A stretch of 27,763 nt of DNA from a virus. The position numbers were made by a program, and so were the translations under genes. The stretch lies in the IMG/VR virus record IMGVR_UViG_3300010354_010220, positions 1-27,763 of that record; one strand, given 5' to 3'. The notes below the pieces were generated by a model. It was not told the DNA's origin. It did not search any database and saw only the letters and a program-made list of their open reading frames with translations. Positions 4,603 through 26,355 of this stretch are shown here, one piece after another (within the stretch, counting starts at the first letter, position 1; each line of letters starts with the position of its first letter).

Positions 4603-6834
4603 ATGTCAACTCAACAGAAATCTATTCTAGCTAAGCTGCTCGCAACTGAGAACATTTCAGTTCAGCATCGCAACTCTATGACAGCTTATTTTGACCCTAA
4701 GAACAGGGTCATGGTATTGCCTGTCTGGAAAGATATGTCCGATAACCTACACGACTTACTTCTAGGTCATGAAACAGGACATGCACTCTACACCCCACCT
4801 GATGGCTGGCATGATAGTGTCAAAGATTCCTCACGTAGAGGTTTCAAGACCTACTTGAATGTGGTCGAAGACATTCGTATTGAAAAGCTAATCCAAAAGA
4901 AGTATCCCGGATTGAAAGCATGCTTTACCAAAGGTTATTCTGATCTTATGGAAAGAGACTTCTTTGGTGTTAAAGAACTTGACATTCAATCCCTGCCATT
5001 CATTGATCGAATCAACCTGCATTTTAAGGTTGGTTCGTATCTAAACATTCAGTTCACAGACAAAGAACAAGCTATCATCGATCGTTTGGACAAAGTTTTT
5101 TCCTGGGATGAAGTAGTTAAGATGGCAACCGAGCTTTATAATGCTCGCAAAGATGAACTCTCAAAATTTGAACAACTAATGCAGGATTTTGAATTTGATG
5201 AGTATTTAAATGAATATGAAGATGATTGGGATGACGATCTCGATGCTGAAGATGACGACTCTACAGAAAATGGGGATGAAGGTAAGCGAAAGAAATATGA
5301 GAATTTTGACGGCGAAGCAGATGACCCCGAATCTATCACTGATCGAAACTTTAGGAGCCGCGAAAAAGAATTGATTGATGATTCTGTTAAGCCATATCAT
5401 TATGTAGATTGTCCAAAAGCTAATCTAAGGAACATCATTGTTCCTTATAAGAATTTGAAATTCAACTACAATAATTTCCGCTACCCTGTTGAAATGTATA
5501 GAGATGACGAAGCAGCTAACATCATTGAGAATGGTAAGACTGCTCTGATGAAAAGATTCTTGGATACGAATAAAAAGTATATTTCTTATTTGGTTAAAGA
5601 ATTTGAGATGCGTCGTAATGCAAGGCAATTTGCCCGTGCAAGCATTTCTAAGACAGGTCAACTAGATATTAAGAAAGCATATTCATATAGGATCAACGAA
5701 GACTTGTTCAAACGTATGACGGTTGTTCCGAATGGTAAATCGCATGGTTTGGTAATGTTTATTGATTACTCAGGATCAATGACTGACAATATTGTGGCTA
5801 CGGTTGAGCAAACTCTAATCCTTGCTACATTCTGCAGAAAGGTAAATATTCCTTTCCGAGTATATGCCTTTACTGATCTTACTGTGTCGCCAGAAACAGC
5901 TGCAAAAGAACTTGGATACAATGATGTATTAGAGTATGAACAATATATGACTTCATATTATAGATATGCTCGAAGCAATAAAGTGCATGAGAAATATGCA
6001 AAGTTCTCAGAAAATAATAATGAGCTTTACCTTACGTCGAGTCATTTTAAACTGCGAGAATATTTGTCTAGTGAAATGACTGGTATTGAATTTAAGAACG
6101 CTGCAAAGTATTGGTTGCTTGTAGCTAATCTGATGCAAAATACTAGTTACAGTTTTAGGAAAGTAGAAAACAAAATTCCTAATGATTTGTATCATTTTAG
6201 AAATTCTAGTTATGAAAGTCTAAACGGCACTCCTTTGAATGAAGCAGTGATATCTTCAATTGATATTGTAAAAGAATTCAAAGAGCAGTATCGGCTAGAT
6301 GTAGTAAACACTGTATTTTTAACTGACGGTGATGGTAACGAATCGCCTGACAAGGTTGATGATGGCGCTATTCGAAGGATTGCTCCTTATGGTGAACGAG
6401 ATATCAACATCGTGGTTCGAGATGCAGAAACAAACCTTACAGGCAAATCCTCTCCTCGAACTCCTATTACGATTGCTCTTTTGCGTTTACTCAAAGCAAA
6501 GACCAAAAGTAATGTAATTGGATTTTTCTTAATTGGTACTTATAGTCCTAAGCGAGCAATTCAGAAGAAAGCTGATGACAGCGGATGTCCTATTATTAAT
6601 CTAGATGAAACACTGAAGAATTTCCGTAAGAATAAGTTCTTTATGCTTAATGATGTTGGCTATGATGACTATTACATTATTCCTGGAGGTGAAGATCTTA
6701 GAATTGAAGAAGATGTTCTTGATGTCAATGACGGTGCATCTAAAAACGAAATCAAACGAGCTTTTTTGAAAATGCAAAAGGGCAAGATTGTAAACCGTGT
6801 GCTTTTGAATAGATTTGTGGAAAAAATCTCTTGA
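4603..6834 (+). CDS. cobT: CobT-like protein with HEXXH zincin motif and VWA/MIDAS domain
   Basis: A 743-residue protein related to the CobT subunit of aerobic cobaltochelatase, widespread in marine T4-like phages. The N-terminal domain has HETGH at residues 56-60 with a Glu-containing helix VEDIRIE at 88-94, which resembles a gluzincin metallopeptidase site. A very acidic linker runs from about 185 to 230. The C-terminal von Willebrand A domain has DYSGS at 388-392 and TDGD at 574-577, the MIDAS ligands. It has its own perfect promoter and an AGGAG Shine-Dalgarno. The neighbouring AAA+ protein is the expected partner. No CobN-like chelatase is present here, so a cobalamin role is doubtful; an AAA+-driven remodelling or proteolytic role is my inference. 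Confidence 0.85.
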   Translation: MSTQQKSILAKLLATENISVQHRNSMTAYFDPKNRVMVLPVWKDMSDNLHDLLLGHETGHALYTPPDGWHDSVKDSSRRGFKTYLNVVEDIRIEKLIQKKYPGLKACFTKGYSDLMERDFFGVKELDIQSLPFIDRINLHFKVGSYLNIQFTDKEQAIIDRLDKVFSWDEVVKMATELYNARKDELSKFEQLMQDFEFDEYLNEYEDDWDDDLDAEDDDSTENGDEGKRKKYENFDGEADDPESITDRNFRSREKELIDDSVKPYHYVDCPKANLRNIIVPYKNLKFNYNNFRYPVEMYRDDEAANIIENGKTALMKRFLDTNKKYISYLVKEFEMRRNARQFARASISKTGQLDIKKAYSYRINEDLFKRMTVVPNGKSHGLVMFIDYSGSMTDNIVATVEQTLILATFCRKVNIPFRVYAFTDLTVSPETAAKELGYNDVLEYEQYMTSYYRYARSNKVHEKYAKFSENNNELYLTSSHFKLREYLSSEMTGIEFKNAAKYWLLVANLMQNTSYSFRKVENKIPNDLYHFRNSSYESLNGTPLNEAVISSIDIVKEFKEQYRLDVVNTVFLTDGDGNESPDKVDDGAIRRIAPYGERDINIVVRDAETNLTGKSSPRTPITIALLRLLKAKTKSNVIGFFLIGTYSPKRAIQKKADDSGCPIINLDETLKNFRKNKFFMLNDVGYDDYYIIPGGEDLRIEEDVLDVNDGASKNEIKRAFLKMQKGKIVNRVLLNRFVEKIS

Positions 6835-25018: not shown

Positions 25019-25442
25019 TATAATCAACATTAACTTTCCAGGGTATAATCCTTTAGAGGTTATACTGTCTGAACCTGACGATTTTTTAAAGGTACGAGAA
25101 ACCCTAACTAGAATAGGTGTGGCCTCTAGAAAAGATAAAATTTTATATCAATCATGTCATATTCTGCATAAGCAGGGCAGATATTTTATCGTACATTTTA
25201 AAGAACTATTTGCGCTAGATGGTAAGTCCGCAGATCTAACAGACAACGATTTACAACGTAGAAATACTATTTCAAAATTGTTAGTAGATTGGGGATTGGT
25301 TAAAATTAACAATCCTCAGTTATTCCAAGATTATGCTCCTCTTTCACAAATCAAAGTAATTTCTCACAAGGAAAAAGATGAGTGGAAATTGGAAACAAAG
25401 TATAATATTGGTAAGAAAAAATTAACTACTAGCACTAAATAA
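25008..25442 (+). CDS. regA: RegA translational repressor
   Basis: RNA-binding protein that represses early phage mRNAs by occupying their initiation regions. The sequence tracks T4 RegA closely: PDDFLKVRETLTRIGVASRKDKILYQSCHIL, broken here at about 20 residues as FLKVRETLTR and DKILYQSCHIL, then RYFIVHFKELF and KDEWKLETKYNIG. I chose the ATG at 25008 (144 residues), with AAGGTG at 24996-25001, over a GTG three codons earlier. The stop at 25440-25442 is followed directly by the structured leader. DNA polymerase gene 43, which follows regA in T4, does not follow here. Confidence 0.94.
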   Translation: MSTDIININFPGYNPLEVILSEPDDFLKVRETLTRIGVASRKDKILYQSCHILHKQGRYFIVHFKELFALDGKSADLTDNDLQRRNTISKLLVDWGLVKINNPQLFQDYAPLSQIKVISHKEKDEWKLETKYNIGKKKLTTSTK

Positions 25443-25460
25443 TTATATCCCCGGGATGGG

Positions 25461-25547
25461 AACGTAAAGACTCTACTACCTTAGGAGCGTCTAACGCTGG
25501 CACAACGATATGGTGCCCCTGTATTCAGTAAGCAGGATATTAGTAGA
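25461..25547 (+). promoter_or_regulatory. Structured 5' leader RNA with nested helices
   Basis: This noncoding stretch can fold into a multi-helix junction. An outer helix pairs TCTACTA (25472-25478) with TAGTAGA (25541-25547). Inside it three hairpins abut with no unpaired base between them: 25486-25490 with 25494-25498, 25499-25503 with 25513-25517, and 25518-25521 with 25533-25536. A further 6-bp pairing, AACGTA (25461-25466) with TACGTT (25561-25566), would close the whole. The outer helix is mutually exclusive with the terminator at 25543. I match it to no riboswitch family I know. It could be a riboswitch-like attenuator or a processed small RNA. Confidence 0.5.
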
Positions 25548-25568
25548 TGCCTTCGGGATCTACGTTTT
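25543..25568 (+). terminator. UUCG hairpin with U-tract in the leader
   Basis: GTAGAT (25543-25548) pairs with ATCTAC (25558-25563); inside, CC/GG closes a TTCG loop with one bulged G. A T-tract follows at 25565-25568. This has the form of an intrinsic terminator. Its 5' arm is shared with the outer helix of the leader fold, so the two structures compete. The T-tract is short, so termination may be incomplete. Confidence 0.55.
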
Positions 25569-25595
25569 AATTACTCGCTTTAATAGGAGAAAACT

Positions 25596-25820
25596 ATGCT
25601 ATCATTTGTTAATAACGCAATCGACACCGTTCAAGGTGCAAAGACCCAGTTCATCAAGACATTCGTCACCAACGATGAACTTAAGAAACCCCTTCAAACT
25701 TATGTAGATGCTCAGGCTGCTTTTGCTAAGAAAGTTGTCGCAGAAACAAATACCTTCCTCACAACCGTAGGTATGTCTGCTTATAACTTCGACGCCAAAA
25801 AAGCATTTGCTAAGCAATAA
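25596..25820 (+). CDS. Small phasin-like protein
   Basis: A 74-residue, almost entirely helical protein. The central part, LQTYVDAQAAFAKKVV, resembles phasin-family helices, and the C terminus ends in FDAKKAFAKQ. It begins at ATG 25596 with AGGAGA at 25585-25590. Codon choice is richer in C-ending codons (TTC, ATC, ACC, GTC) than in surrounding genes, as expected for a strongly expressed protein. It precedes hsp20 with a 10-nt gap. Phasins coat granules in bacteria; in a phage it may act as a small chaperone or scaffold, which is inference. It is not clearly homologous to a named family. Confidence 0.6.
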   Translation: MLSFVNNAIDTVQGAKTQFIKTFVTNDELKKPLQTYVDAQAAFAKKVVAETNTFLTTVGMSAYNFDAKKAFAKQ

Positions 25821-25830
25821 GGAGGTTATT

Positions 25831-26355
25831 ATGGGTAACGGTCTAACACTAGGCAATATTGCTTTCGGTCCAGCATTCAAGGACATCGACAAATTCTTTG
25901 TAGGGTTCGACGATCAATTTAATCGTCTTGCTAAAATGCATGATGAAATTACAAAGAACATTCCTAACTATCCTCCATACAATATCAAGAAAACCGGCGA
26001 GAACACTTATGTTATCGAATTGGCTGTTGCTGGTTTTGCTAAGCAGGATATTGAAATCACTCTTGAAGATGGCAAGATGATTATCAAGGGCAATGTAGAG
26101 AATAATGAAGATGAAAACTTCTTATTCAAGGGTATTGCTAACAGAGCATTTACTCGTACATTTGCTTTGGAAGATACTGTCGAAGTTAAAGACGCAGCTA
26201 TGATTAATGGCATGTTGCGTGTATTCTTGGAACGCATTATTCCTGAGCATAAGAAGCCAAAGAAGATCGAAGTCAAAGACGAGACTTCCGATATCAAACC
26301 TAAAAAAGTTAAACAGCAACTTCTTACAGAAGACCCACAAGGTCGAGACCTGTAA
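25831..26355 (+). CDS. hsp20: Hsp20-family small heat shock protein
   Basis: A 174-residue chaperone with an alpha-crystallin domain: PPYNIKKTGENTYVIELAVAG, split as PPYNIKKTGE and TYVIELAVAGF, then DIEITLEDGKMIIKG, FTRTFALEDTVEV and GMLRVFLER. It follows the IbpA-like plan, with an N-terminal arm of about 45 residues and a Lys-rich C-terminal tail. The ATG at 25831 has a full AAGGAGGT Shine-Dalgarno at 25819-25826, the strongest in the window. Codons resemble those of the small gene before it. Phage Hsp20 proteins are common in marine T4-like phages and probably protect folding during infection or assembly. Confidence 0.93.
   Translation: MGNGLTLGNIAFGPAFKDIDKFFVGFDDQFNRLAKMHDEITKNIPNYPPYNIKKTGENTYVIELAVAGFAKQDIEITLEDGKMIIKGNVENNEDENFLFKGIANRAFTRTFALEDTVEVKDAAMINGMLRVFLERIIPEHKKPKKIEVKDETSDIKPKKVKQQLLTEDPQGRDL

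Follow-up and report, generated by a model that had tools for sequence, protein, structure and literature searches.

The 153-nt leader behind regA in this phage fragment is very probably the 5′ UTR of a late operon (a gene for a 74-aa protein followed by hsp20), which ends in a ROSE-type RNA thermometer and has an independent pseudoknot module upstream of it. By structure, the 3′ part of the leader (25543-25589) is a two-hairpin ROSE-type thermometer. We rate the leader as a ROSE-type variant in a phage: ROSE itself is known, and the setting on phage hsp20 is new in the open literature searched.

Gene Organization and Promoter

The window, i.e., the whole stretch of 27,763 nt that was analysed, is a fragment of a T4-like phage with gp46/47-, clamp-, and regA-type genes. 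The regA gene stops at 25442, and the gene for the 74-aa protein starts at 25596. The 153-nt gap between them had been described in the original prediction as a noncoding leader; the gap is real, and it is noncoding. The following features border the leader:

25435..25441, + strand: T4-type late promoter element CTAAATA, which overlaps the end of regA and resembles the consensus TATAAATA
25596..25820, + strand: open reading frame of the 74-aa protein, the first gene after the leader and the one directly controlled in our proposal
25831..26355, + strand: hsp20, IbpA-like, with its own Shine-Dalgarno (SD) sequence AAGGAGG (PF00011, E 3.5e-17; phrog_432)

The 74-aa protein has 18 relatives in IMG/VR and no match in the named phage collection. 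It matched no Pfam or PHROGs family above the cut-off, and its earlier label "phasin-like", in the sense of a true phasin, found no support. The promoter-like element had been missed in the original prediction. The sequence TATAAATA was present within 300 nt upstream of ROSE hairpin I (described below) in 76 of 173 relative leaders, as compared with a background of 2.4%, and the relaxed form NTAAATA in 139 of 173 (background 15%). The spacing between the element and hairpin I clusters at about 10-20 nt in leaders with the thermometer only, or at about 100-120 nt in leaders that also bear the module. Because of this element and its two preferred distances in relatives, we infer that late transcription probably starts about 10 nt past the promoter-like element and covers the whole leader.

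A tRNA search of the window was negative. The window gave no Rfam match at the gathering score, and at E values up to 10 the leader gave only chance matches. The calculated folding energy of the leader is no better than that of shuffled sequence (z -0.56), and its minimum free energy structure is a mixture of real and unreal helices. Since folding energy alone does not beat shuffles, the evidence presented below is comparative. The 13-mer TAAGCAGGATATT occurs twice in the window, in the leader (25529-25541) and within hsp20 (26040-26052), probably by chance.

The ROSE-Type Element

The 3′ part of the leader contains two hairpins:

25543..25563, + strand: ROSE hairpin I, GTAGAT-(G bulge at 25549)-CC-TTCG-GG-ATCTAC, supported by covariation
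25574..25589, + strand: ROSE hairpin II, composed of the anti-SD strand CTC-G-CT (25574-25579), a loop, and the SD AGGAG (25585-25589), supported by conservation and by covariance model R1

For hairpin I, 50 distinct sequences were compared. In this set, 92.5% of the cells were paired, against 62.5% after shuffling, and six pairs showed two-sided changes. The covariation value was 0.703, as compared with 0.172 for shuffled sequences and 0.05-0.14 (maximum 0.144) for slid controls. Among 190 leaders, which have 96 different outer stems, the bulged G was retained in 188. Hairpin II, which masks the SD, had escaped the original prediction, yet it is conserved: CTCGCT-N2-10-AGGAG is nearly invariant ahead of phage hsp20. 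Nearly all relatives share the same leader ending, which consists of the pattern stem-G-CC-NNNN-GG-stem, a linker, CTCGCT-N2-10-AGGAG, and the start codon.

The defining traits of ROSE elements were found in this arrangement. At 25574-25589, the SD is paired with a strand of the U(U/C)GCU type with a bulged G; a further stable hairpin, hairpin I, lies 5′ of the SD hairpin; and the element resides in the 5′ UTR of a small heat-shock gene (69 of 69 matches of model R1, of which four are cut by contig ends, and 13 of 13 named records). The positive control, E. coli ibpA, was recognized as ROSE_2 with 100.4 bits, and its core TCTCGCTGATTTCAGGAG has the same anti-SD and SD as TACTCGCTTTAATAGGAG of the window. 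In permissive mode, Rfam ROSE_3 was detected in the homologous leader L016 (36.6 bits, E 7e-4) and in the cyanophage-type leader L104 (28.9 bits). The ROSE_3 alignment of L016 shows the same two hairpins with one bulged G each. The gathering threshold of ROSE_3 (RF02523), 43 bits, was not reached by the best relative (36.6 bits), and the window had no ROSE_3 match even at E 10; the window and the phage set stay below the Rfam gathering score for every ROSE family.

Distribution of the ROSE-Type Element

We gathered 98 IMG/VR loci by means of the 74-aa protein and RegA, and later scans added more. Covariance model R1 was built from 18 sequences with the window left out. In the 27.8-kb window, it gave a single match, at 25541-25591 (43.4 bits, E 3e-9). 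In 93 related phage loci, 69 matches were obtained, of which 41 lie directly before hsp20 and 23 before a small gene followed by hsp20; of the rest, one precedes a small cysteine-rich gene followed by hsp20, and four are cut off by contig ends. Directly before hsp20, the element was also found in all 13 named phage records tested, among them P-SSM2, P-SSM4, S-SM1, S-SM2, S-SSM7, S-RIM2, S-CAM1, S-SCSM1, S-P4, and S-CRM01. A pattern scan of IMG/VR that was independent of the proteins again placed matches with both hairpins at hsp20 or at a small gene plus hsp20; its remaining matches were chance hits in GC-rich contigs. Against E. coli ibpA, R1 scored only 6.2 bits.

Predicted Thermosensing

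The calculated energy of hairpin II is -3.8 kcal/mol at 25 °C and -1.8 kcal/mol at 42 °C. In silico, the mean accessibility of the SD in 58 distinct phage elements is 0.14 at 25 °C and 0.27 at 50 °C, as compared with 0.39 and 0.48, respectively, in shuffled leaders. In the same calculation, the known E. coli element rises only from 0.10 to 0.32. These modelled values agree with masking of the SD and fall short of proving a switch. When longer stretches were folded by nearest-neighbour energies, little or no opening with temperature was predicted, and RNAfold temperature scans were set aside as a proof of thermosensing because their outcome depends on the stretch folded.

We propose the following mechanism. 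Hairpin I would serve as a stable folding scaffold. Hairpin II would mask the Shine-Dalgarno sequence by means of the imperfect CUC(G)CU strand, so that translation would stay low at normal temperature. Warming would open hairpin II and free the SD of the first gene, and the chaperone operon would then be translated when proteins misfold. In the window, the SD that is masked is that of the 74-aa gene, and since a separate SD precedes hsp20, control of the latter would need translational coupling there. At the 5′ end of the transcript, upstream of the thermometer, would stand the independent pseudoknotted two-hairpin module, whose most likely role is to protect or position the 5′ end of the RNA.

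The 5′ Hairpins and the Pseudoknot Module

The part of the leader upstream of the thermometer contains the following features:

25448..25461, + strand: 5′-terminal hairpin TCCC-N6-GGGA, followed by ACGT; sequence conserved in many relatives, structure recognized by eye
25470..25487, + strand: hairpin P, a CTC/GAG stem with the conserved loop ACTACCTTA, paired in 11 of 11 aligned leaders
25496..25499, + strand: 5′ strand of the pseudoknot helix, GCUG, which pairs with 25526-25529 (CAGU in the loop of hairpin B)
25499..25517, + strand: hairpin A, 5 bp with a single bulged G in its 3′ strand, one closing pair, and the loop ACGATA, supported by covariation
25518..25536, + strand: hairpin B, 5 bp, with the loop ATT-CAGU-AA, which carries the 3′ pseudoknot strand (25526-25529), supported by covariation

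The sequence (T)CCC..GGGATGGGAACGT of the 5′-terminal hairpin is conserved in many relatives. In other leaders, the stem of hairpin P is TCCC/GGGA, CTCC/GGGG, CTTC/GAAG, or ATTC/GAAT. A pairing between its loop CCUUA and the UAAAG linker, seen by eye, was dropped because the linker varies (UUUUG in L217). Five hsp20 leaders that do not contain the two-hairpin module (L012, L019, L029, L031, and L032) have other H-type pseudoknots of 6-7 bp, recognized by eye, between the 5′ hairpin and the thermometer (e.g., TGTGAGG/CCTCACA).

In the module (25496-25536), a pseudoknot links two hairpins that directly abut, and each of the three helices shows compensatory changes; the pseudoknot itself had been missed in the original prediction. 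Two-sided changes were found in five of the six pairs of hairpin A (99.4% of cells paired), a result that was repeated on a wider set, and in three of the five pairs of hairpin B (100% of cells paired). Across both sets, 97-100% of the cells of the two hairpins are paired. For the module as a whole, in 30 sequences, the corresponding value is 99.8%, with nine pairs showing two-sided changes and a covariation of 0.466, against 0.144 for shuffled sequences and at most 0.086 for slid controls.

A wider search required the C and G of one pseudoknot pair and the closing GTAA and left the neighbouring pair free. This free pair was standard in 111 of 113 module instances (UA in 53, GC in 46, CG in 10, and AU in 2). 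Some of the loci had been retrieved with hairpin B patterns; this raises the number of loci and has no bearing on the pairing of the free positions. The two unpaired cases look unrelated. After shuffling, the free pair was standard in 46% of cases on average and in 60% at most, and two module architectures arose by chance in 7.5 Mb of shuffled sequence. Covariance model R2, built from 19 sequences that include the window, gave one match in the window, at 25492-25538 (71.6 bits). The module matched no Rfam family, manA included, and no description of its pseudoknot fold was found in Rfam or in the open literature. We regard it as a candidate new RNA family.

The Module in Other Genomic Settings

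The module is not restricted to hsp20 leaders. In 22 contigs with phage tRNA clusters (e.g., L134 at 5703-5765 and L355-L375), it follows a sigma70-like promoter, and the pseudoknot there is compensated (UCCG/CGGU). It also occurs directly after stop codons, often at a distance of 5 nt, and is then followed by an intrinsic terminator (L384, L391, L400, L405, L411, L414, L416, L432, L456, and L487). Judged by their C-termini, many of the proteins encoded upstream of these stop codons appear to be PstS-like, and others appear porin-like. We take the module-bearing contigs for phages, given that one module match is on a contig of 41 kb that encodes about 30 tRNAs and another on a contig of 250 kb. 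When bacterial genomes were scanned with one form of hairpin B, five matches were obtained, none of which had the remainder of the module; this negative is a weak one.

Our guess is that a role at RNA ends, in stability or processing, such as that of a 5′-end stabiliser, fits these settings best. On balance, we favour the view that the module represents an undescribed RNA family of tailed phages, a portable end element that would shield or define transcript ends (the 5′ ends of the hsp20 mRNA and of tRNA clusters, and positions behind pstS-like and porin-like stop codons) and that in hsp20 leaders is joined to a thermometer kept in the core of T4-like cyanophages.

Several other RNAs were noticed in the course of these scans. 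The unrelated phage contigs L457, L466, L492, and L396 contain module-like pseudoknots (ACAG/CUGU, GCCG/CGGU), either at the borders of genes or a short distance ahead of start codons. The tRNA clusters contain tRNA-like RNAs with a long end helix, GCGGUG/CACCGC, followed by UCCA (L363 at about 5715-5790, with similar ones in L356, L361, L362, and L365), which were called by neither ARAGORN nor Rfam. A permuted tmRNA (RF04321, 93 bits) is present on the minus strand of phage contig L384 (4319-4679).

Alternative Explanations

The original prediction pointed correctly to a conserved structured leader of a small gene/hsp20 operon, probably regulatory, and to some of its hairpins, but the switch between antiterminator and terminator forms that it proposed is scarcely credible. 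All of its pairings can be drawn in this one sequence, but several are not kept across relatives. The outer helix TCTACTA/TAGTAGA (25472-25478 with 25541-25547) has seven of seven pairs in the window and one to five of seven in ten relatives. As it is broken in all ten, even in those with an identical 5′ strand, we consider it a one-sequence coincidence. The second pairing (25461-25466 with 25561-25566), supposed to hide the T-tract, has six of six pairs in the window and two to four of six in the same number of relatives, and no mutually exclusive alternative pairing of the kind expected for an attenuator is kept among the ten. From the series of three abutting hairpins, the second (25499-25517) and the third (25518-25536) proved real. 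The first (AGCGT/ACGCT, 25486-25498) has three pairs that never break and inner pairs that are broken in most relatives; no two-sided change was seen, and hence covariation does not support it. Across homologues, compensatory changes were thus obtained for hairpins I, A, and B and for neither the outer helix, the first hairpin, nor the T-tract-hiding pairing.

The hairpin described as a UUCG terminator is likewise real and strongly covarying (25543-25563), but it is ROSE hairpin I and not a terminator. At least five Ts in the eight bases after it, as a switch would have them, occur in 72 of 173 relatives, whereas 83 of 173, cyanophages in particular, have at most three. In the window, only four Ts follow, and the terminator scan does not list the hairpin; a GC-rich hairpin with a direct T-run is not kept among relatives. 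Moreover, the SD of the gene is located 16 nt further downstream, within a conserved hairpin. The statement that the leader belongs to no known family holds for the middle pseudoknot module, which has no Rfam match, but not for the ROSE-like 3′ part, for which ROSE_3 (RF02523) is the nearest Rfam family. A stand-alone phage small RNA ending inside the leader would suit the promoter-like element directly upstream, but it is highly improbable, given that no conserved terminator lies between promoter and SD and that the structure continues into the SD and start codon in every relative. It is also unlikely that the module is the ligand-binding aptamer of a riboswitch whose expression platform would be the ROSE hairpins. 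The module is compact and pseudoknotted, some letters of its loops are conserved (ACGNNA, GUAA), and in hsp20 leaders it always lies directly upstream of the SD-masking element; however, the same module is also present between stop codons and terminators and at the start of tRNA clusters, with no common regulated pathway evident, hairpin A of the tRNA-cluster form does not have the ACG loop, and many phages have ROSE without the module. No riboswitch class of Rfam matches the module or the leader.

A further possibility, to which we give distinctly less than even weight, is that the leader is chiefly a landing site for phage Hsp20: free Hsp20 would putatively bind its own 5′ UTR and repress translation until misfolded proteins titrate it away. 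There is a precedent in E. coli, where IbpA acts through its own 5′ UTR to repress its translation, for which it requires Arg93, a residue that IbpB does not have (PMC10474464). Hsp20 of the window scores 277 against E. coli IbpA and 212 against IbpB, and the equivalent of Arg93 is kept. The fetched loci encode about 176 phage Hsp20 sequences, and all but one of these keep the Arg; the sole exception (Lys) is phage C48C1, which has the lowest thermometer score of the 13 (13.7 bits). Against this, of the second basic pair that is required (R97/K98), only one half is present (R, T), and the Arg could be retained for the fold. Because phage Hsp20 keeps the Arg that E. coli IbpA needs for leader binding, autoregulation through the leader is plausible. 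It is compatible with the thermometer, and temperature would then be one of several inputs.

Relation to Known Systems

ROSE elements are well known in bacteria. The phage copies share with ROSE_3 (RF02523) the bulged G before CC..GG in hairpin I, the CUC-(G)-CU/AGGAG pairing of hairpin II, and the position at the start codon of a small heat-shock protein (sHsp) gene. They differ from it in their scores (at most 36.6 bits against the cut-off of 43), in stems and loops that are AT-richer and shorter, in the late phage promoter, and in the pseudoknot module or small extra gene that often stands in front. With ROSE_2 of E. coli ibpA (RF01832), they have the identical anti-SD/SD core TCTCGCT..AGGAG in common, whereas the E. 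coli element is longer, has more 5′ structure, and is otherwise unrelated in sequence. In Pseudomonas ibpA, a two-hairpin ROSE form is sufficient, and hairpin II melts while hairpin I does not (PMC3669281). This short ROSE-like element resembles that of the phages in its two-hairpin plan, its anti-SD of the U(U/C)GCU type, and its sHsp gene; its melting was demonstrated experimentally and it works with a heat-shock sigma factor, whereas the phage element is a predicted thermometer with a late-type promoter.

The RNA thermometers described in phages are those of lambda cIII, the fourU element of SPbeta blyA, and the fourU element of a Caudoviricetes sigma70 gene (PMC11182007, PMC10586365). They are also located in phage mRNAs, but they are not of the ROSE type and not on hsp20. 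Our survey covered the open literature; it yielded these three phage thermometers only, none of the ROSE type (PMC11182007), and the cyanophage sHsp papers found there contain no mention of a thermometer and no account of hsp20 control.

T4-like cyanophages have hsp20 among their core genes (PMC3037559). If our reading is true, some of the most abundant aquatic viruses would share the translational heat control of proteobacterial ibpA, driven in their case by a late promoter and possibly combined with feedback by Hsp20. It raises the question of whether warming of infected cells switches on the phage chaperone at the level of translation. In S-PM2d, a putative Pho box, ATTCAAACTCGCTTAAATA, was reported 31 nt before hsp20 (PMC10976474). 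The published letters contain the ROSE anti-SD strand ACTCGCT, and the assignment therefore merits a second look; a ROSE-type thermometer is an alternative reading of the Pho box proposed for S-PM2 hsp20 (PMC10976474).

The pseudoknot module, a candidate RNA family with several genomic settings, was also compared with manA RNA (RF01745), which is found in cyanophage leaders, including those of ibpA-type genes (PMC2864571). Both are structured cyanophage RNAs near chaperone and phosphate genes, and manA lies right behind a pstS-like gene in P-SSM4, but the structure of manA is different and much larger. We rejected the identification of the module as manA: there was no manA match in the window or in 15 of 15 IMG/VR records, and R2 does not match manA. 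The sole match in the manA search of 19 records was P-SSM4 (L510 at 1501-1686, P-SSM4 164829-165014), where manA scores 184 bits and starts within 20 nt of the stop codon of the PstS-like gene.
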